Virus record (IMG/VR): IMGVR_UViG_3300031951_000034
Coordinates: 1 to 64,000 of that record
Length of the DNA stretch: 64,000 nucleotides
From: a virus
Reading direction: 5' to 3' (one strand)
Shown here: positions 10,307 through 54,749 of the stretch, piece after piece
How positions within the stretch are numbered: the stretch's first letter is position 1
How the letters are laid out: each line of letters begins with the position of its first letter
Program-made: the position numbers and the translations under genes
Notes under the pieces: generated by a model
Seen by the model: the letters and a program-made list of their open reading frames with translations, nothing else
What the model was told of the DNA's origin: nothing
The model's database searches: none

Positions 10307-10378
10307 TGCGGGATACAATTCTGGGAATTGGGGGGTCTCATAAGCCTCTTTAGGTGGGTTCGATTCCCACTCCCGCTA
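10307..10378 (+). tRNA. tRNA-Met (anticodon CAT)
   Basis: A cloverleaf can be drawn. The acceptor is TGCGGGA with TCCCGCT, with an unpaired T-T at positions 1-72. The D stem is CAAT/ATTG. The anticodon stem is 10332-10336 with 10344-10348, loop CTCATAA (anticodon 10339-10341). The T stem is GTGGG/CCCAC with a TTCGATT loop. CCA is encoded at 10379-10381. The mismatched first pair is reminiscent of initiator tRNAs, but the anticodon stem lacks their three G-C pairs, so initiator, elongator or a CAU-Ile tRNA remain possible. Confidence 0.85.
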
Positions 10379-10385
10379 CCATTAC

Positions 10386-10457
10386 GCCGACATAGCTCAG
10401 AGGTAGAGCTGCTGTTTTGTAAACAGCAGGTCGTTGGTTCGATTCCAACTGTCGGCT
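10386..10457 (+). tRNA. tRNA-Thr (anticodon TGT)
   Basis: Acceptor GCCGACA pairs with TGTCGGC. The anticodon stem GCTGT/ACAGC encloses TTTGTAA, giving anticodon TGT at 10418-10420. The T arm is canonical, with a TTCGATT loop. CCA is encoded at 10458-10460. It lies 5 bases after the Met tRNA's CCA, so the three tRNAs are processed from one transcript. Confidence 0.95.
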
Positions 10458-10465
10458 CCATTCTC

Positions 10466-10537
10466 GTCTCCATAGTGTAATGGTCAGCACCTTTCCCTTT
10501 CACGGAAATAGTAGGGGTTCAAATCCCCTTGGAGATG
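10466..10537 (+). tRNA. tRNA-Glu (anticodon TTC)
   Basis: Acceptor GTCTCCA pairs with TGGAGAT (one G-T pair). The anticodon stem TTTCC/GGAAA encloses CTTTCAC, giving anticodon TTC at 10499-10501. The T arm is GGGG with CCCC around TTCAAAT. CCA is encoded at 10538-10540. A Glu tRNA reading GAA suits this phage's Glu-rich scaffold and AT-rich codon use. Confidence 0.94.
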
Positions 10538-10553
10538 CCAACTAACATAAAAA

Positions 10554-29195: not shown

Positions 29196-29909
29196 ATGGA
29201 TCAAGACCCTGAAAAATATTGGCAAGAATGGAAAAAGAAGCCAACCCCGGAGAATCTTTTAAATACTGTAAAGGCTTTTGACGGATTAATAAATACAAGC
29301 ATCGGACAACAAAAATCAATAAATCCTACGTTATTAAGAAGTAGAGCAAAGATTTTAGTTTCACAAGCAGTAAAAACATACTCTCCATCTGAGGGGACAA
29401 GATTATCTACACATGTATATAATTATCTCAGGCCATTGAACAGAGACGCTAAAAACATGACAGAAATATCCCCATTGTCTCGTCACTTTAGCGAGGAAAC
29501 AGGTAAATATATAAATTTTATAAATGAATTCTCTCAGGAAAACGGAAGAGAACCAGACGATTCGGAAATAATGGATAATCTTGGTATAAGTAAGGGTAAA
29601 TTAAATAAATTAAACCAATCAGTAAAATATGAGATTCCAGAGAGTCAATTAGTTGGTGGGGTAGAATTAGATGAAGACGAGGAGTCTAATAGATTAAATT
29701 TATGGACAGATTATGTCTACAACGATTTAGATAGTTTTGGCAAAAAAATATTAGACTACAAATTAGGTAGGAACGGTAATCCAGTGATGTCAAATGATGA
29801 CATTGCCATAAAACTTAAGATTTCCCCGTCAGAGGTTTCAATTAGGTCGGCAAAAATAGCTGAAAAGATATTGAATGGAGTAAACTCCAGAGAAAAAATA
29901 ATACAATGA
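29196..29909 (+). CDS. Sigma-70-family-like factor within the baseplate cluster
   Basis: A 237-residue protein with the layout of an alternative sigma factor. Residues about 45-80 (RAKILVSQAVKTYSPSEGTRLSTHVYNYL) correspond to region 2, with the typical G-T-x-L-x-T-[HY]-x-Y segment. About 95-145 resembles region 3 (FSQENGREPDDSEIMDNLGISKGKLNKL). About 175-225 is a helix-turn-helix like region 4 (MSNDDIAIKLKISPSEVSIRSAKI). It lies between hub and wedge genes and its stop overlaps the next start. It may direct late transcription, or the fold may have been reused structurally; neither can be decided from sequence. Confidence 0.68.
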   Translation: MDQDPEKYWQEWKKKPTPENLLNTVKAFDGLINTSIGQQKSINPTLLRSRAKILVSQAVKTYSPSEGTRLSTHVYNYLRPLNRDAKNMTEISPLSRHFSEETGKYINFINEFSQENGREPDDSEIMDNLGISKGKLNKLNQSVKYEIPESQLVGGVELDEDEESNRLNLWTDYVYNDLDSFGKKILDYKLGRNGNPVMSNDDIAIKLKISPSEVSIRSAKIAEKILNGVNSREKIIQ

Positions 29910-30778: not shown

Positions 30779-32464
30779 ATGGCTGATCCAATAGAAAATT
30801 TCAATTTAGTAGAAGGTATAAACTTAAATGACTCTTCTTTTTCTGAGGATGAGATACTATCTGCTCAAAGTATTTTAAGGCAATACATTTCAGATAATTA
30901 TCAAGATATAGATTTTTCTGAGCTATCATCTTTAAATGATTTGTTAATAAGACCTTTTGCTCAGATATTTTTGATTTTAAAAAAATTAATAGAAGAATTC
31001 TCTAAAACAAATACTATTTATAGTGCGTTATCGCTGCCTGAATCATCTAGTGATAAGATAGTTGATGCATTATTGTCTAATTTTAATATCAAAAGAAGGC
31101 AGGGATACATATCAACTGGTTTTGTAAAAATAAATCTTACTAACTTTTCTGAGTCCTTTTCGATAGATGAGTCAATTAAGTTTAAAACAAATAATGGTTT
31201 AATATTTTCATCTTCGGGAGCGTTTTCAGGGTCAGTATCTCCAACTGCCTCTAATCAACTTAAAATATATTCGGACTCTACAGGTACCCAAAAATTCGTA
31301 ATAGTTCCATTCGTTGCGGAAAAAGAAGGTTCGGAATATAATATAGAGCAGTATACAACTTTAAATATATTAAATTCAAGGACGGGCATAATATCTGCAA
31401 ACGCTTTTTCTAAGTTTTCTGGAGGGCAGAATAAAGAGTCCAATCAAGAAGTTATAGATAGAATCATTCCAGCTCTTTCTACTAGAAACCTTGCCTCTCC
31501 TCTTGCGATTGAACAAACACTCAGAGATAACTTTCCAGAAATACAGCAAATATCAATTCATGGAGTAAACAGTGAATTGATGTCAAGGAATTCACATAAT
31601 ATTTTTGGGATAAAATCTGGTAGTTTTTGTGATATTTATGTAAAAACATCTTCTTTCGTAGAAGAGTTTTTTGAACAAAATTTAGTGGCACAGAAAATAA
31701 CGCAATCTATAATTAACTTAGATAACTCACTTGCTCCATACCTTGGGAAATATTTACTAAAATTATCTAGAAATGAATTACCTGGTAATTATAGAATAAC
31801 TAGGGTTTTCTCTAAAGAGTTAGAACTCACTACATTAAGTAGCTTTAATATACTTAGCGTAAGAAGAAAATTTGATAAATACAGCGTATCTAATACCGTA
31901 GATAATTATATATTTAATACTCAGGAGTCAACTTATTCTAGTTATTCATACCAAGACATAATATTTGACGGAGTCGGTAACAATTCAGATACTATGTCTG
32001 TAACTGTTTTCGCGGAAATGATCCCCTCTATACAAAGAATACAACAATTTGTTAATCAGCCTGGAGCTCAGTCAGCTTTAATTGATACGCTTGTCAGAGC
32101 GTGTATACCATGTTTTATAAGTACATCAGAAATAACTGTAAGAACTAAGCTTAATTCGACTACACCAGAAAAAATACAGAACAATATAATAGACTATATA
32201 AACTCAGTAAACCCCAGAAAAGAAGAGATCAGAATAGATAAAATTATTTCATCTATAATGCAAGACAGTAATGTTTTATCCGTTAATACACCGATAATGA
32301 TAAATGCTGAAATACTTGCACCAGACATAAATTTCACTACGATAAAGTTGTACTCTGAGTCTACGTTGGTTATACCAAAAAACATTCAATTAGGGTACTC
32401 AAGGGACAATATAGGATTCTTTGCTCGTAAATCTGGAATTCCTGTAACATTAATAGAAATATAA
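30779..32464 (+). CDS. Baseplate wedge protein (gp6/gpJ-like)
   Basis: A 561-residue protein one base after the gp25-like gene. Residues 180-260 match the Baseplate_J pattern (FSGGQNKESNQEVIDRIIPA, RNLASPLAIEQTLRDNFPEI), where a Gly-Gly-x-D/N-x-E sequence precedes helical repeats. The N-terminal 70 residues are helical and acidic. gp6/gpJ proteins form the iris ring of the wedge and link neighbouring wedges. The length fits the family (T4 gp6 is about 660). Confidence 0.78.
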   Translation: MADPIENFNLVEGINLNDSSFSEDEILSAQSILRQYISDNYQDIDFSELSSLNDLLIRPFAQIFLILKKLIEEFSKTNTIYSALSLPESSSDKIVDALLSNFNIKRRQGYISTGFVKINLTNFSESFSIDESIKFKTNNGLIFSSSGAFSGSVSPTASNQLKIYSDSTGTQKFVIVPFVAEKEGSEYNIEQYTTLNILNSRTGIISANAFSKFSGGQNKESNQEVIDRIIPALSTRNLASPLAIEQTLRDNFPEIQQISIHGVNSELMSRNSHNIFGIKSGSFCDIYVKTSSFVEEFFEQNLVAQKITQSIINLDNSLAPYLGKYLLKLSRNELPGNYRITRVFSKELELTTLSSFNILSVRRKFDKYSVSNTVDNYIFNTQESTYSSYSYQDIIFDGVGNNSDTMSVTVFAEMIPSIQRIQQFVNQPGAQSALIDTLVRACIPCFISTSEITVRTKLNSTTPEKIQNNIIDYINSVNPRKEEIRIDKIISSIMQDSNVLSVNTPIMINAEILAPDINFTTIKLYSESTLVIPKNIQLGYSRDNIGFFARKSGIPVTLIEI

Positions 32465-32467
32465 AAC

Positions 32468-34252
32468 TTGAAAGACGATTTAACATATAACAAGAATTTT
32501 TCAGACTTTCTTGGGTCTTTTTGGTCATCTATATTTGATGCTGGTGACTTTTCTCAGGCACTTGGTGGTGCATATTCTGAGACGTTAATACAAAATTATT
32601 TAGATTTAGTAGATGTAATAAATTCGTGTTCAGTTGGTACCGTTCCTATATTCTCTAGGCAAAATGTATTTCCTGTAGTCATATCTAAAAATAATTTTTA
32701 CAAAAACATAGACAATCCAGAATATGGAGATGGCTCTTATTATGGTGTTCAACCAAATGAATCAAAGTATTCATCTGGTGATATTATCAGGTATGGTACT
32801 GCATCATCATTAAATAAAAAATTTTACATAGAGCTAAAAAACAAGGATATTGTAAGCTTAGGAGCTGTTGCAATTAATAGATTGTTTGAGCCATCAGTTA
32901 CATACCTAAATGGGGTTGATTTTTCTCTTTATCGCGGAGGTATACTATTCAAAGAAGACCCATTTCTAAACCCATTAATTCCAAAAAGAAAAATAATAGA
33001 TAAAGACCTAGTAGAGATAGACGAAGAGCTAATACTATGGATATGTGACGTAGATATTGACAAATTTTTAATATACAAACAATTTGGGTATACGTTCACT
33101 AATTTAAGGACATCGTCTGAACAATACAAAGACATAACCATAAAATTGTTTGAACTAGTATCTAAAGGACCAAGTGTATTTGCGCTTAGGTCGTATTTAT
33201 CTGTTATATCCGGAAGCCCATTGATTAGAGAGCCACTAGAAACAATACAAGATATACACAAAAATCCAGACGATGATACAACACTTGTTATAACCGACTT
33301 TAATGTATACAAACTGCAGGATAAACAGATAATATCAAATGACATAAAGATTGGAATTAGCGTAAAATCTGGGACACCGCTAGTTGATGTAGTTAATATA
33401 GTTAACACTAAAGACAAAAATTGGTGGGCAAATTTTGCGTCACTTCCGCTGCCTAAAAAATCATCAACTAATGTTGATACATATATATCATTTCCTAATA
33501 AATATATAAAAATCAAATACGGTAAAAAAATATCCCCCAATAACACATTATCCACTTCAGTTTTTTTTGACCTAATTGGTGAAACTAAAACTATAGAAAA
33601 TTTTTGGAAACGCGTATTTGAAAAGGCTAAGCAAAGTCAAATTTATTATGGGTACGAAATATTTAAAAAATATGCAAATTATCAAGATGCACAATTAGAT
33701 TTTGAAAATAATTTAGAGTTTTCTGTTAATCCTGCTCAAATTTTTTCTGAAGATTTTTTTTACGGAAATGTCTTACCGATAAAAATTGATTTAAGTAAAA
33801 TAAATGACATAGAAGTGTTCTTTTCTACTATAAACCCGATAAAAGATAACACGCCGGTTAATGTTATATTGATGTTCTTTTTAGAGTTAAGTGGAATAGA
33901 AAAATACGAAATGCTTTTAGATAATAGGCAAAGTTATGCTACTTCTGTCAATTTAAGTGATTTATTAAATTTAAACACTAGTTCATTTCCAGATAAAACT
34001 AATCAGGGGTATAATACCCCAGAACTAGATAAATGGAATAATTTTGTTGATACTCCAGAAGTTATAGAGGCAATATCTATTGAAGTAAATGTCAGTAAAA
34101 ACAAAAAATCTGGAAGATTTTACAAAAACAATTTTGATGACAATAACTTATCTAGTAATGGTTTTTTACTTGAAAAATTCGATCTTTCATCTACAACTAA
34201 TTTAGTGCAAAATATAGAGCTTAAACAAATACCAAAATGCGCAATACTATAA
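32468..34252 (+). CDS. Baseplate wedge-associated protein, unknown
   Basis: A 594-residue protein beginning with TTG (32468), as no ATG is near. It has long beta-rich stretches and helical linkers, with no recognised motif. Immediate succession after gp25/gpJ-like genes is the place of gp7/gpI-type wedge proteins. Its end overlaps the next gene by 16 bases. Confidence 0.6.
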   Translation: MKDDLTYNKNFSDFLGSFWSSIFDAGDFSQALGGAYSETLIQNYLDLVDVINSCSVGTVPIFSRQNVFPVVISKNNFYKNIDNPEYGDGSYYGVQPNESKYSSGDIIRYGTASSLNKKFYIELKNKDIVSLGAVAINRLFEPSVTYLNGVDFSLYRGGILFKEDPFLNPLIPKRKIIDKDLVEIDEELILWICDVDIDKFLIYKQFGYTFTNLRTSSEQYKDITIKLFELVSKGPSVFALRSYLSVISGSPLIREPLETIQDIHKNPDDDTTLVITDFNVYKLQDKQIISNDIKIGISVKSGTPLVDVVNIVNTKDKNWWANFASLPLPKKSSTNVDTYISFPNKYIKIKYGKKISPNNTLSTSVFFDLIGETKTIENFWKRVFEKAKQSQIYYGYEIFKKYANYQDAQLDFENNLEFSVNPAQIFSEDFFYGNVLPIKIDLSKINDIEVFFSTINPIKDNTPVNVILMFFLELSGIEKYEMLLDNRQSYATSVNLSDLLNLNTSSFPDKTNQGYNTPELDKWNNFVDTPEVIEAISIEVNVSKNKKSGRFYKNNFDDNNLSSNGFLLEKFDLSSTTNLVQNIELKQIPKCAIL

Positions 34253-34872
34253 AAGAAACTTACGAACCATCATGTATTGGTACGGTAACTATGGGTTATA
34301 GGAATTTAAAGACAAATTCATTTACCCCAATCTTCCATAAAAAAAATCTAATAATGTATGGCGCTGCAGATATAATGTCTAGGTTAGTATCTGGCGATAA
34401 CAGATACTCTATATCCCATATGTATTATCATTATATCAATACTTCAGTGGTTCCATCTTTATATGAGGTTAATAGTAGAGCTGATGGTATAAATTTTTTC
34501 TCAACTCTCGGCAACACAACAGAGGATTGGATAAGGATACCTATTTTAACGTCAGCAAAAATAGATACTTACTATGACTTTGCTCCAGGCGAAGAGCAAA
34601 ACAATGTATATAGTGGAAATATGGCTACGTTTGTTGCAACAAGCGCCTCGCATCCAACTCAACAAGGGGAATCTAATGCATCCCCATCAAATTATTTCGC
34701 TTATGCGGGGGACAATGGTCCATCAAAAATAATAGGAGTAGCATTAGCTAGTTCACCAGATCCATTAAACAAATATAAAGATATTGTGTTTAGTCGACTC
34801 GCTTTATCTTCCCCAATAACTGTTCAAGAGAATAGCTACATAGACTGTTTTTGGTCTATTGCATTTAAATAA
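34237..34872 (+). CDS. Baseplate/fibre-connector protein, unknown
   Basis: A 211-residue beta-rich protein overlapping the previous gene. The segment KNLIMYGAADIMSRLVSG followed by ISHMYYHY resembles an opening seen in fibre-base or baseplate proteins of several large phages. The C-terminus SYIDCFWSIAFK looks like a terminal beta strand. Likely attaches fibres to the baseplate; inference by position. Confidence 0.6.
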   Translation: MRNTIKETYEPSCIGTVTMGYRNLKTNSFTPIFHKKNLIMYGAADIMSRLVSGDNRYSISHMYYHYINTSVVPSLYEVNSRADGINFFSTLGNTTEDWIRIPILTSAKIDTYYDFAPGEEQNNVYSGNMATFVATSASHPTQQGESNASPSNYFAYAGDNGPSKIIGVALASSPDPLNKYKDIVFSRLALSSPITVQENSYIDCFWSIAFK

Positions 34873-34889
34873 AAACATAAACCAAAAAT

Positions 34890-37193
34890 ATGGCTAATAC
34901 ATGGGTTCCACTAATTAAGCCTCCAATAGATGGAGAGCCTATAAATCAAGAGACCGAAGCTAGACCAATAAGAGCTCTTCAACAGAGAACCGATTTCTTG
35001 TTCGAGAGACTGAATGATTTTAGTTCCCAGAACGGGAAACTAGTTATACAGAATGTAAGAGTTTCAAACGATGTAGAAGTCGGGGACTGGGTTTTCTTTA
35101 ATAACGAGAGCCAAAAATATGAAAAGGCTATAGCAGAGGGTGTTTTCGATAACGAAACAAAACAATACAAAGCCTCTGATAGAACGTTTGTAGTTGGATT
35201 ATGTGTACATAAAAATCAGACACTCGGTTCAATATTAATGAGTGGCTGGATTAATGACATTAAAGACTTTCAAATTGCTAATGTGCGTCAAATGCTTGAA
35301 GACACTACAGAGCAATTTAATCCAGGAAGATTTTATTTATCTAGGAAAAAACCAGGTAAAATGACTTCAGTGGGTGGAGCTCCATTAGTACAATTAGGAT
35401 TTTTTACGGAGAAAGATGCTTTTGTTCAGCCACTACAAAAAGATATATTTGAATCACATATACACTATAAATTTACGCTAGAAGCAAAACCATCTGCAAG
35501 CCAAAACATATCCAGAAAGGGTTACGTAGAAAAAAATGGTATAAAGTATGTTGATTATTTTTACTCTTCATCCAGGCCAGAAGGAGATGTTCCTCCATTT
35601 ATAATGTGTTTAAAGGGCAATGGATCATATACATCTATTGCTGAACAATTTAGAATTGATATTGTAAAAACTACTGACAATAAAATTGGATTTAGATTTG
35701 GAAGAGGTTCATTACTTGATTTTGATGATCCATCTAGCGGGTCAATTGAAGTCGTCTCTCAGGTTAGCATACCTGACTACGGAAAATGGATCACAATACC
35801 AAATACTGGTATAGATATTTCTTTCGTCAGGCATGATGGCGTGTATTCGGGTAACACCCTTCAACAAGATTTTACTACTGCAATGTCTACGGACGGTGCT
35901 GATAAATTTTGCATTTATTATCCGTTCGACACAAATGGATGGACAAACGTTAACTCATTTGATGGGAGATATACAGTAGGCACAAAATATAGATACTTAA
36001 GAGAGTTCAATAAAAGGGTAAACGCAGTTTGGCCTCCTACTCCGACAGAATCTGTAACAATAAGCAATAATGGTATAGATTTAATAGAGTCGAAAGATTT
36101 TAAATGTTTTCCACAAGACTTATTCTGGGTCCCTGGAACCTTCAGCAACAACGAACAAAAAACAGATTCTCCATGGCCTCATGACTATATTGCTAGAAGA
36201 ATTGATACCGACCCAGATCCAAATCAATCACTAAGCAAGTACCTACAATTGTTTTTCTCAAAGGCAAACGTAAGTACGGCAAGACCACTAGTGCTTTCAC
36301 TTCAAAGTTTTACTCCAGCAATACAAGTACTTGATTGCTTTACGAAAGAAGAGTCAACTACAGGTAATCTTGCAATTGATCTAAGACTCGACTTAAATAC
36401 TACAGACGGCCCAGATGCGGACAAGTGCTTCTCTAGAATTGATTCAGATACTCAAAAGTTTGTAACATCCCCCCTCGTAAGCAGAGTTATTGCGGGTCAG
36501 GGGATAGAGATCAAGAATTTACAGGGTAACTCAGCTGAAACAGGTAAGGTTATTATATCGAGCACAACAATACAATCATCTGGTGAGGTATCTATAGTTT
36601 CGCTAAAAAACGCAAAAGAATATTTACATAATGGAGTTATGCCCTGTGTAACATTCTTGCCTCCTGGATCCGCTAAATGCCAGATGGTAGCAAAAATAAA
36701 AATACCATATCAGGCCGTGCCAGAGAGCAGTGGAGTAAAATTATTTTTATCTTCAAATGTATTTGGATCCTCCTCTGTATCGCAAACAAATACATATAAT
36801 GCACTATTTAAGGCAAATTACTATGTATTTCCGTCAGGACTTGGTAATGCCCCTAGAGCCTCTTGGAATAACTTTAACCTTAATTACATTGATGACTCAA
36901 GTGATGAAGTATCTTTTGATATAAAATACTGGAAAACTCAACTAACCAATTACTTAGCTTATACGGTAGACAAAAATCAATTCCCTAAACAGGGTTCAAT
37001 AATATCAAACAACGGAAACACTGATTTATTTGTTTTATACGGAAAGATAAACAATATAAATCAACAAAAAATAAGACCAGGTGATGTTGTTTATGTTATG
37101 ATAGAAAGAGTTTCTACGTTTGGAGAAGACGGAGATACTTACCCTGGAGATATAAGCTTTTTAGATATAAACTGGAGAACGGAGGTTATCTAG
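34890..37193 (+). CDS. Large tail fibre/baseplate protein, unknown
   Basis: A 767-residue beta-rich protein. The N-terminus is helical (ETEARPIRALQQRTDFLFER), as in proteins anchored in the baseplate, followed by beta domains with many Asn/Ser/Gly turns. The segment FVVGLCVHKNQTLGSILMSG near residue 95 is a motif I associate with structural tail proteins, but I cannot name the family. Its last base is shared with the next start (TAGTG). Confidence 0.62.
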   Translation: MANTWVPLIKPPIDGEPINQETEARPIRALQQRTDFLFERLNDFSSQNGKLVIQNVRVSNDVEVGDWVFFNNESQKYEKAIAEGVFDNETKQYKASDRTFVVGLCVHKNQTLGSILMSGWINDIKDFQIANVRQMLEDTTEQFNPGRFYLSRKKPGKMTSVGGAPLVQLGFFTEKDAFVQPLQKDIFESHIHYKFTLEAKPSASQNISRKGYVEKNGIKYVDYFYSSSRPEGDVPPFIMCLKGNGSYTSIAEQFRIDIVKTTDNKIGFRFGRGSLLDFDDPSSGSIEVVSQVSIPDYGKWITIPNTGIDISFVRHDGVYSGNTLQQDFTTAMSTDGADKFCIYYPFDTNGWTNVNSFDGRYTVGTKYRYLREFNKRVNAVWPPTPTESVTISNNGIDLIESKDFKCFPQDLFWVPGTFSNNEQKTDSPWPHDYIARRIDTDPDPNQSLSKYLQLFFSKANVSTARPLVLSLQSFTPAIQVLDCFTKEESTTGNLAIDLRLDLNTTDGPDADKCFSRIDSDTQKFVTSPLVSRVIAGQGIEIKNLQGNSAETGKVIISSTTIQSSGEVSIVSLKNAKEYLHNGVMPCVTFLPPGSAKCQMVAKIKIPYQAVPESSGVKLFLSSNVFGSSSVSQTNTYNALFKANYYVFPSGLGNAPRASWNNFNLNYIDDSSDEVSFDIKYWKTQLTNYLAYTVDKNQFPKQGSIISNNGNTDLFVLYGKINNINQQKIRPGDVVYVMIERVSTFGEDGDTYPGDISFLDINWRTEVI

Positions 37194-38155
37194 TGGCACA
37201 AAGTATAATTTTCCCTGAGTGGCTAAACTCCAACTCTGTTAGAAATTACCCAATAGCAGAAAACTGCTCTAGAATTGACAAGAGCGGGTCGTATACAATA
37301 TCGAACGATCTAATTGTCTCTGCACAGGTCAATCATTCAAGAGCGTACGCAGATGGAGTATTTTTTATATCTGGTCTATTTGTATCTGTCCCAGTTATTA
37401 AGATATCTATATCGTATCAACCTGAAGATACTTTAATTTCTCCGACATATATATCAACAATAGAAATAGATACTAAAAATTTTTCTAAATTTAGTTACCA
37501 TTCTTTTATTGGTCAGAATGAAAACTCATCAGTGCTTGGAGCAATTGCGGTAGGTGATATAGCAGAGACGATAAACAGGGGTCTAGGTAATTTCGATTTT
37601 GATAGCTCCTCAACTAAGCTAGAAATAAATTGTAGATTTGTTTCTATGCCGTCTATGCAATACATAGATATATATGATTCAAATAATGTATTAATTCATA
37701 GAGCCACTGATGTTTTAAAGATAAAAGCTGGACAAAACGTAAGAATAACGTACGACCCATTAATAAATATAGATACTGGCGAGACCGACCAATATGGTTG
37801 CGTAAAGATAGATGCAATAGTAGATGAGAACGTCATAAAAGAACCAGACGGGTGTGAAACAGCTAAAGCCTTTTACAGTCCATGTATAAAAACTATTAAT
37901 GGTGTTAGGCCAGACTCAAATGGAAACTTTTGGATAGAGGAGTCGGAATGCATAGGGATTGATGAGTACAAAGATGCCAACTCTATAAAAGTTAACGATT
38001 TATGTTCAAGTTCTTGCTGTGGCTGTGTTGATCTAGAATTTTTGACTGCAGGATTAGAACAGTTAAAACAACAGGAAGAAAGACTTAGGGAACTTGTTTT
38101 AACAACTCAAGGAACTCAAAGTGAGTTACTTGCAAACTTAATTGCAAATCTGTGA
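37193..38155 (+). CDS. Fibre-associated paralogue 1 (W-x-NS-x-R-x-[FY]P family)
   Basis: A 320-residue protein starting at GTG; a GGAGG ribosome site 8-12 bases upstream decides this start. The N-terminal motif FPEWLNSNSVRNYPI is shared with the next four genes. Beta-rich residues 20-200 follow. Then come ING at about 233 with the pattern INGVRPDSNGNFWIE, a cysteine cluster (CSSSCCGC, near 275) and a C-terminal coiled coil. The ING-x-x-P-D-x-x-G-x pattern is common in phage tail fibres. Function unknown; perhaps adaptor or fibre-trimerising protein. Confidence 0.7.
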   Translation: MAQSIIFPEWLNSNSVRNYPIAENCSRIDKSGSYTISNDLIVSAQVNHSRAYADGVFFISGLFVSVPVIKISISYQPEDTLISPTYISTIEIDTKNFSKFSYHSFIGQNENSSVLGAIAVGDIAETINRGLGNFDFDSSSTKLEINCRFVSMPSMQYIDIYDSNNVLIHRATDVLKIKAGQNVRITYDPLINIDTGETDQYGCVKIDAIVDENVIKEPDGCETAKAFYSPCIKTINGVRPDSNGNFWIEESECIGIDEYKDANSIKVNDLCSSSCCGCVDLEFLTAGLEQLKQQEERLRELVLTTQGTQSELLANLIANL

Positions 38156-39783
38156 AAAATATACAAGAATGGCAGCAAGAAAATTCAATAAGGGCGTTTC
38201 CATTCAGTGAAAAAACAATTTCAGCTAATGGAATTCCAAAGGATTTTATCGTAGATCTTAAATTTTTTCCAGACTACTATTCAAACAATTCTATATATTT
38301 ATCTAGCGTTATATATAGCTCGCAAAATGATTCATACGTTCTTGAATTTAAATATTCACAAACAGAAGAAATAGCAATTATTTCTGGATCAATTTCTCGA
38401 AGAAGAAGCGTACAGAAAAATGGAATAACTACTAGCGTAAACAGAAAAGGAGATCAAATAACATTAAAATATAGTAATCCTGTATTTTCTCAGATAACTG
38501 GATATGCTACAAAATATGCGGTATGCATGTTTACTATTGGTTCTTCCTGGGATAACGCTTTGCAGAATTTATCCAACCTTGATAAAGAATCATCGTTGCT
38601 TGATTCATCGGTAATAAATCCAGGAAGCAAGGGTTTTAGGAGAGTTTTCATACAAAAACTTCCAGACTATATAACAAGCAGTAATCCTAATTTTTATGTA
38701 GCCCCCTCTATTCCAGAAGAAAATGAATGGGGCAGGGAGATTATACAAAAAATAAAAGCTGGGCCTAACGTAGTTTTCTCCAAAGATTTAGTAGACCCCA
38801 ATCTAATAATTGTTTCTGCTACTCCAGTAGCAACCACTAGTAATGATTCTACGCTAAACACGGACATTAAGTTTATTAATAATGTTGGCCCAGATGATAC
38901 AGGTAGATTTAGGTTGAATACTGTAGGATGCTTAACAAAAATAGAGAGACCAGAAACACGATTTTCTGATGACTCACCAGACGAACAACAAGATATAAAG
39001 TTATTGAATTCTGTACAGCTTCTCAGTGATTGTTTACCGTGTTGCGGGTGCGAAAAATACAGAGCATATACAGCAGCAATAGAGAGAAGGTCTAGAAAAT
39101 TAAAAGAAGTGTGCGATCTACTTGTGCAAATGGTTACATCAAACACCGAGCTGTACAATGACGCTGTAAATAAAATAAATAAAGAAAGACGGCCAATTTG
39201 TAGGGTGAGAAACCTGAGAGTATTTGAAGATCAATTTAGAATTAGTGTGCAGAACACCTGCTCAGTTCCAATTTATGTGGACTTTAGGTTGAGTGTTGTT
39301 GGAGGATTTGGCATAGAACCACAAAGTTTTTCTATACTAGAATTTGACCCTAGCCTGGAGTCAGACAAGCCACCCTTGATATATTCTTCAATCGAGGAGC
39401 TTCCTGCTTTGACTACTACGCCAAAAGACTATTACAATAATTCACCTGATTTACCTAGCGGATTTTTCGGAGGTTTTGTTATTGGATCAAACTCTGAATA
39501 TGGAGATATCAAACCAATAATGCCAGGTAGCTATACAGATATAACTTTTGTTGCTAATTTTCCTGTATTTGATTTAAAAGACAATAACCTTACAATAAAA
39601 TGTGAATCTAACGGCATATATGGTGGGACAGTTAACGACGATCAAGTATGGACAGGAACTTATGGATGCAAGAAAGATGTCTGGATAGCTAGATATGAAT
39701 ATGGTCCAGTTTTGCAGTCAAAAAGTTGCGGCGGAGAATTGATAAGTAGACAAACCTATAGAGTTATACAATTAGATCAATAA
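38152..39783 (+). CDS. Fibre-associated paralogue 2 with cysteine cluster
   Basis: A 543-residue member, starting at GTG overlapping the previous stop. It has the N-terminal motif IQEWQQENSIRAFPF, the motif INNVGPDDTGRFRLN near residue 241, and a cysteine cluster (DCLPCCGC) plus helix, closely matching paralogue 1 through that point. It then continues with about 200 extra residues of beta-rich sequence. This extension may be a receptor-binding or surface domain. A KxSCGG motif lies near the C-terminus. Confidence 0.7.
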   Translation: MKNIQEWQQENSIRAFPFSEKTISANGIPKDFIVDLKFFPDYYSNNSIYLSSVIYSSQNDSYVLEFKYSQTEEIAIISGSISRRRSVQKNGITTSVNRKGDQITLKYSNPVFSQITGYATKYAVCMFTIGSSWDNALQNLSNLDKESSLLDSSVINPGSKGFRRVFIQKLPDYITSSNPNFYVAPSIPEENEWGREIIQKIKAGPNVVFSKDLVDPNLIIVSATPVATTSNDSTLNTDIKFINNVGPDDTGRFRLNTVGCLTKIERPETRFSDDSPDEQQDIKLLNSVQLLSDCLPCCGCEKYRAYTAAIERRSRKLKEVCDLLVQMVTSNTELYNDAVNKINKERRPICRVRNLRVFEDQFRISVQNTCSVPIYVDFRLSVVGGFGIEPQSFSILEFDPSLESDKPPLIYSSIEELPALTTTPKDYYNNSPDLPSGFFGGFVIGSNSEYGDIKPIMPGSYTDITFVANFPVFDLKDNNLTIKCESNGIYGGTVNDDQVWTGTYGCKKDVWIARYEYGPVLQSKSCGGELISRQTYRVIQLDQ

Positions 39784-39787
39784 TTAT

Positions 39788-40711
39788 ATGATAGGAGATA
39801 TTGAAGATTGGTATAATTTAAACTCATTAAGGTCTTATCCATTTGAGTATAAAAAATATGAATTATCAGACAAGAATTTTACATTCTCTGATTTATTGAT
39901 TGTTGATTGTATGGCAATTGTTCATGTGAATGATGCTAAAATATCTTTGTCTTCAATACATTTTTCTGGAAATATTTTTACAGCAACTTTTTATGACTCA
40001 ATCCTTGATCAAGATATTTTTATGGCTCAAGGAAGTCTTTTAAATAAATTTGTGTCATCTCCAATTATTCCGTTGTCTGATGTGGGGGTATCTGGGAATG
40101 TGGCTTTTGGTGATTTAACAAAATTCTATCACATGAGATTAAGCGGATTGCATAAATTTACAAATACAAATATACCTTTAATAAACTACTGTTATATATG
40201 TGCTGGAGAGCCCGCAATAAAATCAATTGAGTACAACATGGGAAAAGTAGTTGGAGACATAGACTTGTCTACGATTGGTTTACTTAACACCATGGTAGAT
40301 TCCAATAATAATACAATTAGGCAAATAAATCAAAACGGAGTTACCCAAAAAGTAGTAATAGATCAATCAAATGTTTTATTTTATTTATCCGACCCATCAG
40401 TCATAGAGGATATATGTCAACCTCCAAGGACTGTATGTGATTGTCCACATACACCAATTAAAAAAATTAATAATGTATCACCTAATCCTCAAAACGGTAA
40501 TATAAATATTGAGGTTGGTGATTTTAAATTAAATGAACAAAACGGAAAATTTGAATTAGAGGTTGGAAGCAGTTCCAGTGGATTAGAGATAGAAAATACT
40601 GCTGATGGTATAATTTTATCTTTGCAGAAAAATAGCGAAGAAATATGTGAAGACACTAAAATTATACCATTTCCAGATGGAAGACTACCTAGCGAAGAGT
40701 TTATAATATAA
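39788..40711 (+). CDS. Fibre-associated paralogue 3
   Basis: A 307-residue member: N-terminal IEDWYNLNSLRSYPF, beta-rich middle, cysteine-bearing segment (ICQPPRTVCDCPHTP) and INNVSPNPQNGNINIE at about 226. It ends acidic. It lies 4 bases after paralogue 2. Role as for the family; unknown. Confidence 0.68.
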   Translation: MIGDIEDWYNLNSLRSYPFEYKKYELSDKNFTFSDLLIVDCMAIVHVNDAKISLSSIHFSGNIFTATFYDSILDQDIFMAQGSLLNKFVSSPIIPLSDVGVSGNVAFGDLTKFYHMRLSGLHKFTNTNIPLINYCYICAGEPAIKSIEYNMGKVVGDIDLSTIGLLNTMVDSNNNTIRQINQNGVTQKVVIDQSNVLFYLSDPSVIEDICQPPRTVCDCPHTPIKKINNVSPNPQNGNINIEVGDFKLNEQNGKFELEVGSSSSGLEIENTADGIILSLQKNSEEICEDTKIIPFPDGRLPSEEFII

Positions 40712-40713
40712 AA

Positions 40714-41433
40714 ATGGAAGCATTAACATACAAAGAGTGGAGAAATCAAAACTCCGAATCTACTTTTCCGTTTACTTACAATAATTCGGAAATAGATAAT
40801 ACTATTTTTATTGATGCTTCCTTAGTAGTCTATGAAGACACTGATATATGGTTATCTAGTCTGTCTTTGAAGGTTGATTCATTCTATGGAGAATTAAAGT
40901 CCGGTAGCTCTAGAAAATACACTTTTTCATCAAACGATCAAATTACCCCATACAAATTAATACCAATAATGGATAGTAGGGGTATTTCGGTAGGTAGTAT
41001 AATTACTGGTACATATTTTTTGAATTTATCTAACAATAGAAAATCTTTTTCTAAGAATTTTGACAGCAGACAAATTCTATTAAATCCTACTTGTTTATTT
41101 ACGTACCCATCAAAGCAGGTTTCTTCAATAAAAATTGGGCCTCAAAGAATAAATGGTTTTATAAACTTTCATGAAGGACCAGGGGTCGAGATGAATGGAA
41201 ATAGCAATATAATTGTTTTTGACTCTATAGGCAAAAATAGTTCTAATGCAATTGATGAATGCTGTGATCCAAATCAAATTATATTAAAAAAAATAAATGG
41301 TATATCTCCAGAGGAGCTAGATTTATATATAAAGCCAAGAGACGTTGGGCAGCCGTCTAACACACTAGACGAAAGACAGGTTATAAGAATAAATCAGTCA
41401 GAGGGTGGGATAAAAATAGAATTAACCAAATGA
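40714..41433 (+). CDS. Fibre-associated paralogue 4
   Basis: A 239-residue member: N-terminal YKEWRNQNSESTFPF, beta-rich body, CC doublet (DECCDPNQ) and INGISPEELDLYIK at about 192. It starts two bases after paralogue 3 and overlaps paralogue 5 by four bases. The shortest of the five; unknown function. Confidence 0.68.
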   Translation: MEALTYKEWRNQNSESTFPFTYNNSEIDNTIFIDASLVVYEDTDIWLSSLSLKVDSFYGELKSGSSRKYTFSSNDQITPYKLIPIMDSRGISVGSIITGTYFLNLSNNRKSFSKNFDSRQILLNPTCLFTYPSKQVSSIKIGPQRINGFINFHEGPGVEMNGNSNIIVFDSIGKNSSNAIDECCDPNQIILKKINGISPEELDLYIKPRDVGQPSNTLDERQVIRINQSEGGIKIELTK

Positions 41434-42275
41434 ATAGCTCTTATCCATCTTTTTTCTCTGAAAACTCTAATAGATCTTTTCCTTTCGTAGAGAACACGGT
41501 TTCTAGTAAGGTTAAAAACTCGTGTTTCATAGATTTTAAATGCTGGACAAGGTTTAAGACACATGAGTCCCCCAGCCTATACTTGGTCGCAAACTATTCA
41601 GCAGATTTACCAAATGAGTATAAGCAATTTTTGTTAGATGGATTTTGCACATTATTTTTTTTAGTACACAAGGTACCAGAAAATGAGCATGTATTTAATG
41701 GGATGATATGTGTATATATTCCATTAGACAATTCTCAATGGCCGTATTTAGGTGTATCCAGTGTGTGGAATTCTAGTGGAATTAAAATGTTTGAATTAAG
41801 GACTTTGGTAAATTCTTCTGTATTGGATATTGCATCAAATCCTGATAATTATTTATTTCCATCAAATTTATTTAGCAACCAAGGTGATATAGGGTTAAAA
41901 ATAGAACCAACTCAAGTAATCTACTCAGGTAATATAGTTATCGATGAATTAAATATTGTAGACCAGGATGGATATCACAAAAAAAATATAAATGGTGATG
42001 TGAAGGTTTCTCCTGGATATAATTCCTATATTTATCAAGCTGATAAAAAGTTTACAATTAATTCATCCGCAAATATAGGATCAGGCAAAAGATATAATGA
42101 CGAAAAAAACGATATCTGTAATGGAGTATTTTCAATAAATGGAGTGACACCAGATGAATCTGGAAACTTTAAGATAGAGGGTGACAATGGCGTATTGATA
42201 TTCAATCTTCCGGAAGAATATAAAATAGTGGTAGCTATTGATCCAAAAACAAAAATAGCGAAATGCCAGACGTAA
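41430..42275 (+). CDS. Fibre-associated paralogue 5
   Basis: A 281-residue member: N-terminal [15 protein letters not shown] (the Trp replaced by Phe), beta-rich body, and [15 protein letters not shown] at about 235, near the C-terminus. Its end overlaps the first collagen gene by 13 bases, so the last paralogue and the first collagen chain are translated together. This links the family physically to the collagen fibres. Confidence 0.68.
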
Positions 42276-44422
42276 AAAATACAATAACAGATTGTGAGTT
42301 TACTCCTCCATATATCTTGGAGTGTGAAGTAAAAATACCTAACTTTGTTTTTTTGTGTCCATCTCCAAAACAGGTTACACCAACCATATTTAGCGTAGAA
42401 TACGCTATACCTGGGTGTGTTGGGGCCACTGGCATACAAGGTACTCCAGGTGGTTTCGGTATACCTGGAGCAGTTGGAGCAATTGGGGCTACTGGGCAAA
42501 CTGGCCAACAAGGACTCCCTGGTTCTACTGGTATAACTGGTGATATAGGTTTAAGTGGCCCTCCTGGCCCTCCTGGTGGTTTTGGAGCAACTGGAGTAGA
42601 TGGACCCCCTGGAATCGCTGGACCAGTAGGTCCAGCTGGTCCAACAGGGCCTACTGGCCCACCAGGAGTTATTGGACCCAAAGGGGATACTGGAAAAAAC
42701 GGCAGCACTGGTCCCGCTGGACCAGATGGGCAACCAGGAAAAACAGGCAAGGTGGGATTACCTGGTTTACCTGGAAGCACTGGGACTGTTGGGCCTCCTG
42801 GAGTAGATGGACCTCAAGGAAGAGTTGGCCCAACTGGATCCAGGGGATTGCCTGGAGTATCTGGTCCTGTGGGGCCCCCTGGGCCTGTAGGGCCACCAGG
42901 TGGCGCTGGAGGACCTGGCGTTCCTGGAGCTTCTGGTTCTATTGGTCAACCTGGTGCTTCTGGCAGTCCAGGAAATCCTGGTACACCTGGTCCTGCTGGG
43001 CCTCCTGGTCCAATAGGAAATCCTGGACCAACTGGTCCACCTGGTACAAGCCCTTCTGGGCCACCTGGACCACCAGGAGGGCCAGGCCCAACTGGACCAC
43101 AAGGTCCTGCTGGCTCAAATGGAAACCCTGGGCCACCTGGAGTTACTGGACCACCTGGGGCGTCTGGTGCGCAAGGAGCATCTGGATCTGCTGGACCCCA
43201 AGGTCCTGCTGGACCTGCAGGTCAACCTAACTTAAATTTTGGTCCTCCTGGACCTCCTGGACCTAGTGGAACTCCTGGTTCTCCTGGTCCAACTGGACCT
43301 CCTGGCACTTCTTTACCGGGTCCTACTGGTCCTCCTGGACCTCCTGGACCTAGTGGAACTCCTGGTTCTGCTGGTACTCCTGGCGGAGTTGGGCCTGTTG
43401 GGCCACCTGGTCCTGCTGGGCCACCTGGTCCTTCAAACTTAAACTTTGGACTACCAGGTCCTCCTGGGGCAAGTGGCACTATGGGGCCACCTGGGCCAAC
43501 TGGACCTCCTGGAGCAACAGGTACAAACGGAAATCCGTCCCCAGGGCCAACTGGACCACCTGGTCCCCCTGGACCTGGGGCTTCTGGTAGTTACGGAAAC
43601 CCAGGGCCAACTGGGCCACCAGGAGCACCTGGTGCACCAAATTCTAATTTTGGACCTCCTGGTCCTGCTGGAACAAGTGTGCCTGGACTTCCTGGTCCTC
43701 CTGGACCCCCCGGAACAAATATACCTGGATTAACTGGACCGCCTGGGCCTCCTGGCCCAACTGGTCCACCTGGACCTCCTGGGCCAAGTGGAGCACCAAA
43801 TTCTAATTTTGGACCTCCTGGACCTCCAGGACTTCCATCTACTGTACCTGGACCGCCTGGGCCTCCAGGTCCTCCTGGGCCTAGTGGAACTCCAGGTACA
43901 TCAGGAAATCCTGGACCACCTGGCATAACTGGGCCTGATGGTCAACCTGGTCCTCCTGGAGCGAGCGGAACACCAAATAATAATCCTGGTCCTACTGGTG
44001 CATCTGGGGCAAGCGGGACCCCAAATACTACTCCTGGGCCTCCAGGTCCTCCTGGAGCCTCAGGATCAAATGGGCCTGCTGGAGCTCCAGGTCCTATTGG
44101 TCCACCTGGACCTGCTGGATCAAATGGTGTTGATGGGCTTATTGGCCCTATGGGACCTGTTGGTCCTCCTGGGCCAAGTGGTGCTGTAGGTGCACCTGGT
44201 GTATCTGGGCCCCCTGGCCCAACTGGACCTCCTGGTCTTTCTGGACCTCCTGGTCTTTCTGGACCTCCTGGTCTTTCTGGACCTGCTGGAGTAACTGGAC
44301 CCACTGGGGTAACTGGACCCCCTGGAAGTATACCACAACCTGGAACAGCTGGCGGAAATGGACAATCGAATTGTAGTGGTAGCTGTCAGATATGTTTTTA
44401 CATGAGAAGTCCAAGTTGCTAG
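42263..44422 (+). CDS. Collagen-like fibre chain A
   Basis: A 719-residue protein. Residues 1-50 form a non-collagen head with cysteines ([18 protein letters not shown]). From residue 51 (GCV) to about 687 there is an almost uninterrupted Gly-X-Y repeat rich in GPP, GPT, GAS. A few phase breaks occur, such as N-x-NFG and GTSxPG. The C-terminal 32 residues are cysteine-rich ([11 protein letters not shown]). Gly-X-Y repeats form a triple helix; bacteria usually lack prolyl hydroxylase, so stability would rest on length. The region is GC-rich compared with its surroundings. Likely a tail or head fibre. Confidence 0.88.
44213..44298 (+). repeat. 86-base direct repeat shared by collagen chains A and C (copy 1)
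   Basis: This stretch, encoding [19 protein letters not shown] and GPAGVTG-type repeats, is identical base for base with 48476-48561 in chain C, 4263 bases downstream. Inside it a 18-base unit (GGACCTCCTGGTCTTTCT) is repeated three times in tandem. Confidence 0.85.
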
Positions 44423-44449
44423 TATTATTACTAAATTTTTTTTATATCA

Positions 44450-46552
44450 ATGGATAAAGATTGTAAATTTATTCCCCCAGTTTTGTCTGATTGTGAGATA
44501 CAGGTTAAGCTACCAGATTTAATATGTAAAACTCCTGTTTTTGTATATAGTGTACTAAACACACAAGACTTAACCATTGGAATTCCAGGATGTAGTGGTG
44601 TTCCTGGAATTCCTGGTATAATTGGTCTTGACGGAAGCCCAGGCGCACCAGGCGCTCCCGGATTGATGGGTTCAACCGGTATTACGGGGGCCGTAGGAGT
44701 TAAAGGAGCAACAGGAGCAACTGGGTTAGCTGGTCCAACTGGTAACATTGGATTGCCTGGGCCCGCAGGACCGCCTGGGGATCCTATCCCTGGCCCAACT
44801 GGACCAATAGGAAATCAAGGCAAGAAAGGTGAAGATGGTCCCAAAGGAAACCCAGGTAAAGATGGTATACCAGGTCCTCCAGGATTGCCTGGGGTTCCTG
44901 GGTTAGATGGATCAGATGGTGTACGAGGTCTTCCTGGGATTAATGGAGCTACTGGATTACCTGGGGCTCCTGGGGTAATTGGTTTGACTGGGGGTCCGGG
45001 AGCGACGGGATTAACAGGAAATCCAGGCAATCAAGGACCTCCTGGGGTAGTTGGGGCTTCAGGCAACCCTGGACCCATGGGGCCACCAGGAGCGATTGGT
45101 TCTACTGGATCTGTTGGCTTACCTGGCCAAACGGGTAGTGATGGACCAGTTGGTCCTCCTGGTCCTGCTGGTCCTGCTGGTGGTGTAGGTCCTCCCGGTC
45201 CCCCTGGAGCATCAGGCACAGCTGGTCCTGCTGGTCCTGCTGGTGGTATTGGTAATCCTGGTCCAGTTGGTCCTCCTGGTGCCTCAGGATCTATTGGTGT
45301 GGCTGGACCTCCTGGTCCAACAGGACCACCTGGACCTACTGGTGTTGCGGGGACTAACGGTATTTCTGGCCCTCCTGGGCCATCTGGACCCGATGGAGTT
45401 ACTGGACCACCTGGCCCTACCGGTCCCCCAGGGGGCAATGGACCAAATGGCAACCAAGGTCCACCTGGAGCTACTGGAGTTGGTAACCCTGGACCTACTG
45501 GGCCTACAGGTCCTCCTGGGCCTAGTGGTACTTCCGGTAATCCAGGTGTATCTGGGCCGCCTGGATCAAGTGGACCTGCTGGACCTGCTGGAAACCCTGG
45601 AGTAACTGGACCACCTGGCCCAACTGGACCTCCTGGAGGTGTAGGACCTGCTGGATCTCAAGGTCCTGTTGGGCCTGCTGGAAATCCAGGAACTAATGCA
45701 ACCCCTGGACCTCCTGGACCTCCTGGACCTCCTGGACCCTCAGGCAGTGGCGGAGGCACTGGACCTCCTGGGCCTCCTGGACCTAGCGGAACTCCTGGTA
45801 ATAATGGACCAACTGGACCACCTGGCCCACCTGGGTACGGTATAACTGGTCCACCTGGACCACCTGGACCTAATAATGATGGCACCCCCGGAATACAAGG
45901 AGTAACTGGGCCTCCTGGTCCAACAGGACCACCTGGGCTACCTGGGAATGACGGTTTAACTGGACCACCTGGGCCTACAGGTCCTCCTGGATATAGTGTT
46001 ACTGGTCCTCCTGGTCCTGCTGGCCCTCCTGGAACTCCTGGAATATCGAATACTACTCCTGGACCACAAGGTCCTGCTGGATCACCTGGTCCTCCTGGAC
46101 CACCTGGACCATCTGGCTCGAATGGATACAATGGACCAACTGGGCCTCCTGGACCACCTGGACCAGATGGAGTAACTGGACCAGCAGGGCCGCCAGGACC
46201 TAACGGAAATCCAAATAGTAACTTTGGACCTCCTGGTCCTCCAGGTCCTACTGGCCCTGCTGGTTCTTCTAGCACTGTTAACGGGGTTCCAGGTCCGCCA
46301 GGTCCTACTGGCCCTGCTGGTCCTCCTGGGCCAAGTGGTGCTGTAGGTGCACCTGGTGTAACTGGACCTCCGGGGGTATCTGGTCCTGCTGGAGTTTCTG
46401 GACCTCCTGGTCTTTCTGGACCTGCTGGAGTAACTGGACCCCCTGGAGTAACTGGACCGCCTGGAGTAACTGGACCACCAGGAACTCCTGGGCCTCCTGG
46501 GCCTCCTGGTGGAAATACCTGTACTTCTTGCGTTACATGTAGTTGGTATTAA
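44450..46552 (+). CDS. Collagen-like fibre chain B
   Basis: A 700-residue protein built like chain A. The head is residues 1-43 ([20 protein letters not shown]). Gly-X-Y runs from 44 (GIPGCSG) to about 688. It has a short cysteine-bearing tail ([10 protein letters not shown]). Chain B has the lowest number of visible phase breaks. Its C-terminal repeats ([16 protein letters not shown]) and DNA resemble the end of A and C. It starts 27 bases after chain A. Confidence 0.88.
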
Positions 46553-46573
46553 TATATAATACACTTACACTGA

Positions 46574-48685
46574 ATGAATGACTGTGATTTTACGCCACCG
46601 CTAATTGAGCCTTGTGACATTAAATTAATAGATCCTATTAATTTATGTAAAACCCCAGAGATATTAGACAATTTAGAAATCAATACTCAAATTGATCCGA
46701 TAGACGGGTGTCTCGGGGCAACAGGTCCATCTGGTCAACAGGGAATACCAGGAGTTAATGGATCTCCTGGTGCTTTTGGAATTACTGGAGCAACAGGATT
46801 AATTGGAGCAACAGGATCTACTGGGGTAACTGGCCCCATGGGTGATCCAGGCAGAAATGCAGGAGCTACTGGTTCTTTTGGGGCAATAGGAAAAAAAGGG
46901 GTAAATACAATGGGTCCAGTAGGACCCAGAGGCCCCACTGGACCAGATGGTTTACAAGGAGATACTGGACCAGATGGAGATGATGGACTGCCAGGTGTGC
47001 AGGGGCCACCAGGTAAAGATGGACCGCCAGGATTAAATGGAGCGACTGGATTACCTGGGGCTATTGGGGTTCCTGGGCTTAGAGGAGCTACAGGTATGCA
47101 GGGCGCAACAGGAAACGTAGGTCCGCCTGGACAAAAAGGATATGACGGACCAGTTGGACCGATGGGAGCAACTGGACAACAAGGTCCACAAGGAACCATA
47201 GTAGGTCCTCCTGGTGCGTCTGGCTCACCTGGTCTTGCTGGTCCATCTGGAACCCCTGGAACACCGAATACTACTCCTGGTCCTGCTGGTCCCCCAGGAA
47301 CAACACCTGGTCCGCAGGGTCCACCTGGACCCCAAGGGCCAGCCGGAGGGGTTGGCAATCCTGGACCACCTGGAGTTAGTGTCACTGGACCACCTGGGCC
47401 TCCTGGCGCTACTGGCGCGGCTGGACCGCAAGGAGCCCCTGGCAATCCAGGAGCTACTGGGCCTGCAGGATTGGCTGGGCAATCTGGACCGCCTGGAATT
47501 GCTGGACCATCTGGACCGCCTGGATCAAATGGGCCTGCTGGAGCTCCTGGCGCTCCAGGAATATCTGTGTCTGGACCACCTGGACCACCTGGACCGGCTG
47601 GTTACGGAGCTCCAGGTCCTACTGGTCCACCTGGACCAACAGGCCCTCCTGGACAAAATAACGCAGTAGATGGTGCATCCGGTCTTGCTGGTCCTCCTGG
47701 TCCAACTGGACCTCCTGGAACATCAGGATCAAATGGACCTGCTGGAGCTCCAGGTCCAGCTGGGTCTATTATTCCTGGAATCAGTGGACCTCCTGGTCCT
47801 CCTGGACCCAGTGGAACTCCAGGCTCAAGTCTTCCTGGACCTCCTGGGCCTACAGGTCCTCCTGGGGGTGGAACTCCTGGTCCTCCTGGTCCAACTGGAC
47901 CTCCTGGAGCATCAGGATCAAATGGGCCTGCTGGAGCTCCAGGTCCAACTGGATCTATTATTCCTGGACCTACTGGGAATACTGGGCCGACTACTTCACC
48001 GCCTGGTTCACCTGGCTCTCAGGGAGCTACTGGTCCTGCTGGTCCACCTGGACCAACTGGATCAGGAGGGCCGCCTGGATCAAATGGGCCTGCTGGAGCT
48101 CCAGGTCCAACTGGATCTACTACTCCTGGACCTACTGGCCCACCTGGACCTACCGGATCGCATGGCGTAGATGGACAAACTGGGCCATATGGTCCCCCTG
48201 GAGCATCTGGGGCACAAGGAGCAACTGGGGCATCTGGTACACCTGGTTCAGACGGTTCACCTGGCCCAGCGGGCCCATCTGGCTCGCCTGGATCAAATGG
48301 GCCTGCCGGACCTAGCGGATCTGCCGGTACGGACGGTTTAACTGGACCACCTGGGCCTACAGGTCCTCCTGGACCACCTGGACCATCTGGCTCGGCTGGA
48401 TACGATGGACCAACTGGGCCTCCTGGACCACCTGGACCTACTGGTCCCCCAGGAGTTGCCGGACCATCTGGGCCACCTGGCCCAACTGGACCTCCTGGTC
48501 TTTCTGGACCTCCTGGTCTTTCTGGACCTCCTGGTCTTTCTGGACCTGCTGGAGTAACTGGTCCTGCTGGAGTAACTGGTCCTGCTGGACACCCAGGTAC
48601 AACCGCTGACGGGAGTACTGTAGGTGCAAGAGGTCCCGGTGGATGCGCAAATGCTAATTCTTGCTGTCAGGCGAAATTCAGTTAA
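46574..48685 (+). CDS. Collagen-like fibre chain C
   Basis: A 703-residue protein. The head is 1-44 ([20 protein letters not shown]), then Gly-X-Y starts at GCL (45) and runs to about 670. The tail contains CANANSCC. Internal repeats [14 protein letters not shown] recur several times at the DNA level (47525, 47728, 47918, 48076). Same architecture and near-identical length to A and B. Confidence 0.88.
48476..48561 (+). repeat. 86-base direct repeat shared by collagen chains A and C (copy 2)
   Basis: Identical to 44213-44298. Synonymous sites are also identical, which indicates recent gene conversion or duplication rather than protein-level selection alone. Confidence 0.85.
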
Positions 48686-54675: not shown

Positions 54676-54748
<73 letters not shown>

Positions 54749-54749
54749 C

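Follow-up and report, generated by a model that had tools for sequence, protein, structure and literature searches.

In tail-fibre and baseplate-periphery assemblies such as those of phage T4, several different proteins are joined in series and lead from the baseplate to the receptor. For collagen-like proteins encoded in E. coli prophages, a role as trimeric side tail fibres containing coiled coils was inferred (PMC3368898). In the Salmonella phage Arash (OQ632216), the counterparts of the sigma factor, the baseplate J-like protein and the GSFW protein treated below (gp10, gp13 and gp14, respectively) were found in virions by mass spectrometry; since the Arash virion list of 116 proteins also holds enzymes, this detection is supportive, not decisive (PMC10585845).

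The DNA analyzed here (the window) is a stretch of 64,000 nucleotides and forms part of the 131,288-base IMG/VR virus record IMGVR_UViG_3300031951_000034. Genes for a tail sheath, a major head protein, a baseplate J-like protein and a sigma factor are present in it, and on the basis of these genes the record was assigned to a contractile-tail phage. Five genes encoding proteins of 239 to 543 residues had been reported in the initial annotation as tandem paralogues with a shared head motif, and the ORF list places all of them where they had been described, on the plus strand, with the last ORF running into the first of the collagen-like genes (overlap 42263-42275). Overlapping start and stop codons within the string suggest a single co-expressed operon. 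Four tRNA genes are present, three of them between the phage's head genes and its tail genes and one beyond the tail region, downstream. All features are listed in Table 1.

Table 1. Features of the window. Slots A to E are the positions within the string of five head genes; bits are scores of the slot HMMs.
Feature	Position	Strand	Remarks
tRNA genes (Met, Thr, Glu)	10307-10540		between head and tail genes
Sigma factor gene	29196-29909		inside tail module; equivalent place in Arash and D181
Baseplate J-like protein	30779-32464	+	Pfam E 0.0013, short of cut-off; syntenic homologue in Arash and D181
GSFW gene	32468-34252	+	adjoins baseplate J, conserved; homologue Arash gp14
~210-aa gene	34237-34872	+	conserved upstream of string; independent HMM E 1.1e-18
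GEP gene	34890-37193	+	immediately precedes first head gene where flank suffices; independent HMM E 4.2e-86
Head protein 1	37193-38155	+	320 aa, GTG start; slot A, 171.6 bits
Head protein 2	38152-39783	+	543 aa; slot B 37.3 bits, narrowly above slot A 33.1 bits
Head protein 3	39788-40711	+	307 aa; slot C, 51.2 bits
Head protein 4	40714-41433	+	239 aa; slot D, 55.6 bits
Head protein 5	41430-42275	+	281 aa; slot E, 49.9 bits
Collagen-like gene 1	42263-44422	+	719 aa, Cys-bearing N-terminus
Collagen-like gene 2	44450-46552	+	700 aa
Collagen-like gene 3	46574-48685	+	703 aa
tRNA gene (Met)	54676-54749		downstream of tail region

The relationship of the five genes was examined with a head-domain HMM built from other phages only, from which the window and its closest relatives were excluded. 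Among the 363 ORFs of the 131-kb contig, this HMM picks exactly these five (E values 2.1e-13, 2.1e-13, 5.6e-11, 1.9e-6 and 1.3e-4), while the next ORF has an E value of 0.11 and the best matches in five shuffles range from 0.05 to 0.74. The five and no others were also recovered from the full contig by a separate search with a profile that includes them. By profile-profile alignment, the unit common to all five comprises ~240 residues and consists of a head (W-x3-NS-x-R-x-[FY]-P), a beta-rich domain that contains an I-V-D block, and the motif IN[GN]-x-x-P. Most pairs are related across most of this unit; comparisons were weak for gene 5 with slots C and D and for gene 2 with slot C. Homology among the five reaches past the head motif and over most of the ~240-residue unit; the initial description as a tandem paralogous series is supported. 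The head motif is present in all five genes, with its R replaced by E in gene 4. The second motif is likewise found in each (INGVRPD, INNVGPD, INNVSPN, INGISPE and INGVTPD in genes 1 to 5), yet not always near the C-terminus as had been stated: it is located at residue 235 of 320 in gene 1 and, at residue 242 of 543, in the middle of the protein in gene 2.

Beyond the unit, the five proteins differ. In head protein 1, the head, the beta-rich domain and INGVRPD are followed by a D-x-C-x3-CCGC cluster and a 42-residue C-terminal helix; the signature of slot A given below reads DLCSSSCCGC here, with S for P of D-x-C-x-x-P-CCGC, and the predicted helix spans residues 278-319. Head protein 2 contains the head unit, CCGC and a long C-terminal extension which is also kept in the nearest relative. 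Head protein 3 is without the long C-terminal domain present in slot C of other phages, and head protein 4 represents the minimal unit. None of the five translations contains Gly-X-Y repeats on inspection, whereas the three downstream genes have them.

Searches of the five proteins against Pfam, PHROGs v4, NCBIfam and PDB sequences gave no match above noise, and the same was true for their relatives; at 0.01, all 44 head domains examined lacked a PHROG match. The earlier remark that a described family with this exact head was not known agrees with the library searches. Single-protein searches of viral contigs returned nothing beyond a near-identical contig, and a wide alignment of the proteins had no stretch usable for pattern search. 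When viral contigs were scanned with a degenerate DNA pattern representing the head, 30 stretches were found. In about half of these, the motif lies at most 16 residues from a start codon in an ORF of ~260-510 residues; the remaining stretches look like chance matches. Alignment of the genuine relatives exposed the signature D-x-C-x-x-P-C-C-G-C in the C-terminal part, with a predicted helix behind it. A scan with this signature gave at least 120 stretches, and the gathered loci contain at least 65 complete proteins of ~300-325 residues with both signature and head (at least 53 without near-duplicates). An iterated HMM search of the gathered ORFs yielded ~200 head matches, which partly come from overlapping copies of one contig.

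In 40 of 40 IMG/VR records (the window's and 39 others, most of them >100 kb), a profile search found 2-5 heads per record, mostly 4 or 5; the 39 others were preselected for holding a relative, hence copy number was measured, not prevalence. Low counts are partly due to contig ends and to weak detection of slot B. Tblastn with several members against 50,697 phage records found no head, at a sensitivity too low to exclude distant members, and matches to S-CBP4 reached an E value of 0.2 only and were not counted as a head. Tblastn with the proteins of the window and its relatives found no cultured phage with a head string. In the literature searched, no description of the head family, the head signature or the five-slot arrangement was found. 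The head family is widespread in large environmental phages and yet undescribed. A scan of genome contigs detected it in two metagenome-assembled genomes, of Synechococcaceae and Planctomycetaceae; these matches are possibly binned or chimeric phage sequence, and the host assignment is unsafe. On the contig binned as Synechococcaceae (L165, 1-11932), slots A and B are followed immediately by apparently bacterial genes, which represents either a chimera, a binning error or an integrated remnant. In practical terms, WLNxNSxRxYP and DxCxxPCCGC are simple search signatures with which a host-recognition locus otherwise left as hypothetical genes can be located. The conserved family and the five-slot order are markers for a broad set of large environmental phages, and annotation libraries lack them.

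For the assignment of slots, HMMs were made from genes picked by position in other phages, where proteins of slot A have ~313 aa (with CCGC), B ~450-630 (with CC), C ~515-970, D ~260 and E ~300. Window genes 1-5 score highest with the HMMs of slots A, B, C, D and E, in this order; for gene 2 the decision between B and A is narrow, and profile-profile alignment favours A. In a phylogenetic tree, slots A, C and D each form a single group with support of 85-99 and slot E one with support of 61, while B needs two changes. Gene 1 is placed with A, gene 5 with E and gene 2 beside A; genes 3 and 4 fall on no supported slot. It follows from the slot-wise grouping together with the slot matches that the string is ancient and that its positions are not interchangeable. 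Each position retains a distinct identity from phage to phage, which agrees better with a series of differing adapters than with five copies of one fibre. That the string arose by recent tandem duplication, with a copy number still drifting and no specialised roles, is hardly credible: the tandem layout, the common origin and the 2 to 5 detected copies would fit, but genes at one position are more closely related between phages than to the adjacent genes of the string, and a simple recent duplication was rejected on the basis of this tree.

The C-terminal domains of slot C are long and variable in several phages. In L066, slot C contains a module of ~40 residues that also occurs in annotated tail-fibre and minor tail proteins, and this slot may therefore reach the host surface; PHROG matches of this module also include 'peptidase' and 'head decoration', thus the module is not diagnostic of fibres. 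A lectin-like reading of the C-termini of slot C came from inspection of the residues, had no library match and was discarded. Long poly-serine stretches occur between domains of slot C proteins in L056 (1663-3936), L116 (2129-4291) and L065 (8870-10471). Between two head genes of L021, a 350-aa ORF is present (1102-2154), a putative IS200/IS605 TnpB.

The surroundings of the string are conserved. Where the flank suffices, the usual order is baseplate J, GSFW, ~210-aa gene, GEP, slots A-E and a collagen-like or Pro-rich gene. The string is always located downstream of the GEP gene and, where the flank allows, also of baseplate J and GSFW. HMMs for the GSFW, ~210-aa and GEP genes were built without the window group, and the GSFW HMM matches the window gene with an E value of 4e-76. 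The L162 orthologue of the baseplate J-like protein passes the Pfam cut-off. Downstream, collagen-like genes follow the string in the window, L162, L047, L073 and L117 (E 2.6e-51 with Pfam Collagen for the L047 gene); several other phages have just one collagen-like or Pro-rich gene behind the string, or two. G+C content climbs from ~0.35 to 0.55 across the collagen-like genes of the window (42263-48685). In the nearest relative, L162, gene 1 is 52-53% identical and the five heads precede three collagen-like genes (14831-16105). The collagen-like proteins of L162 have 143-145 aa versus 700-719 aa in the window, with similar Cys-bearing ends; five heads and three collagens are retained in both despite the ~fivefold change in collagen length. 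The proposal of one head protein per collagen or fibre fails on these numbers, five heads facing three collagen-like genes in both phages and the string facing one or two collagen-like or Pro-rich genes elsewhere. Because collagen-like prophage proteins were inferred to be side tail fibres, the genes downstream of the string are plausible fibres (PMC3368898).

The structure of gene 1 was predicted with AlphaFold2 from 49 sequences (mean pLDDT 83.9). In the model, the W is carried by a short helix at the N-terminus; a beta domain predicted with confidence (~residues 20-150), a second beta part and the 42-residue C-terminal helix follow. In the model of gene 4, which with a mean pLDDT of 65.0 is not to be over-read, the strand order matches that of gene 1. 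Foldseek against the PDB gave no match at E 0.001 and no tail-protein relative; weak matches were to C2-like sandwiches and coiled coils. The nearest fold arrangement is C2-like (VIA Z ~5 over 80-89 residues), which is inside the range of common arrangements, and this resemblance between predicted and known folds is taken as no evidence of relation.

Judged from sequence and gene order, the five proteins would constitute an undescribed tail family, for which we see about an even chance that it links the distal baseplate to the collagen-like fibres as an adapter or branching layer; this is the most likely of the readings considered. It is favoured by the unit common to all five, the matching strand order, the slot order, the neighbourhood of baseplate and collagen-like genes, the virion detection of the Arash baseplate J and GSFW homologues, the slot C module of L066 and the operon-like overlaps, and weakened by five heads against three collagens, which gives no simple pairing, and by the missing fold relative among tail proteins. 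Homology, slot order, gene neighbourhood and the lack of a match to known families are demonstrated for the five head proteins; their presence in the virion, docking, trimerisation and fibre attachment we infer. One ~240-residue unit would have been duplicated anciently into five specialised slots whose order was retained, and the shared unit would serve as docking face, although the head residues may instead be structural. Slot A, and probably B too, would be trimerised by the C-terminal helix beside the CCGC cluster; slots B and C carry additional C-terminal domains, and slots D and E would be bare adapters.

Rather unlikely, but the strongest competitor of the adapter layer, is that the five act in parallel as receptor-binding short fibres or spikes, in which the unit anchors each protein separately to the baseplate and each slot binds a different surface feature, the collagen-like proteins being separate long fibres. 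A common N-terminus with divergent C-termini is the usual mark of a shared anchor, and the variable domains of slot C, one with a tail-fibre module, would suit receptor binding. However, homology spans most of the ~240-residue unit and thus goes beyond an anchor; slots D and E, like window gene 3, hardly extend past the unit, and strict slot order and identity are untypical of exchangeable receptor-binding proteins. Fibre chaperone genes often sit beside long fibre genes, and the string adjoins such genes, which would agree with five non-virion helpers, i.e., chaperones or assembly factors that fold and attach the collagen-like fibres. We consider this quite improbable, as five large, beta-rich, slot-conserved proteins with a C-terminal helix or fibre-type domains look structural and copy number does not track collagen number.

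If the adapter reading is right, the string exemplifies how a complex tail tip can be built, with one anciently duplicated unit taking on five fixed roles. An extended form of it, which we regard as speculative and unlikely, is that one large group of uncultured contractile-tail phages assembles its apparatus for host contact from five ordered homologous adapters, each docking through the common unit either to the following adapter or at a separate site, as a modular scaffold for swapped collagen-like or other surface-binding elements. Such a scaffold would have no described counterpart among the tail architectures of cultured phages.

Compared with known systems, Arash and the Vibrio phage D181 (OZ196140) match the window in possessing sigma factor, baseplate J and GSFW genes and in the order of these three, but differ in having no head gene anywhere in either genome, and the profiles of the ~210-aa and GEP genes have no match below E 0.09 there. 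No heads occur in Rctr197k either, which is weakly related in baseplate J. The genes downstream of the string resemble the E. coli prophage side tail fibres in being collagen-like with non-collagen ends (PMC3368898); in contrast to these fibres, the five head proteins are without the Gly-X-Y repeat and without a Pfam phage fibre match. To T4-type assemblies, for which no sequence or clear fold relation to the head proteins was found, the comparison concerns the way of working only, and the window differs by using five homologous proteins that share one unit. A phage tail adhesion apparatus is a known kind of device, whereas the protein family, the head signature and the five-slot order have no counterpart in the libraries and papers searched.
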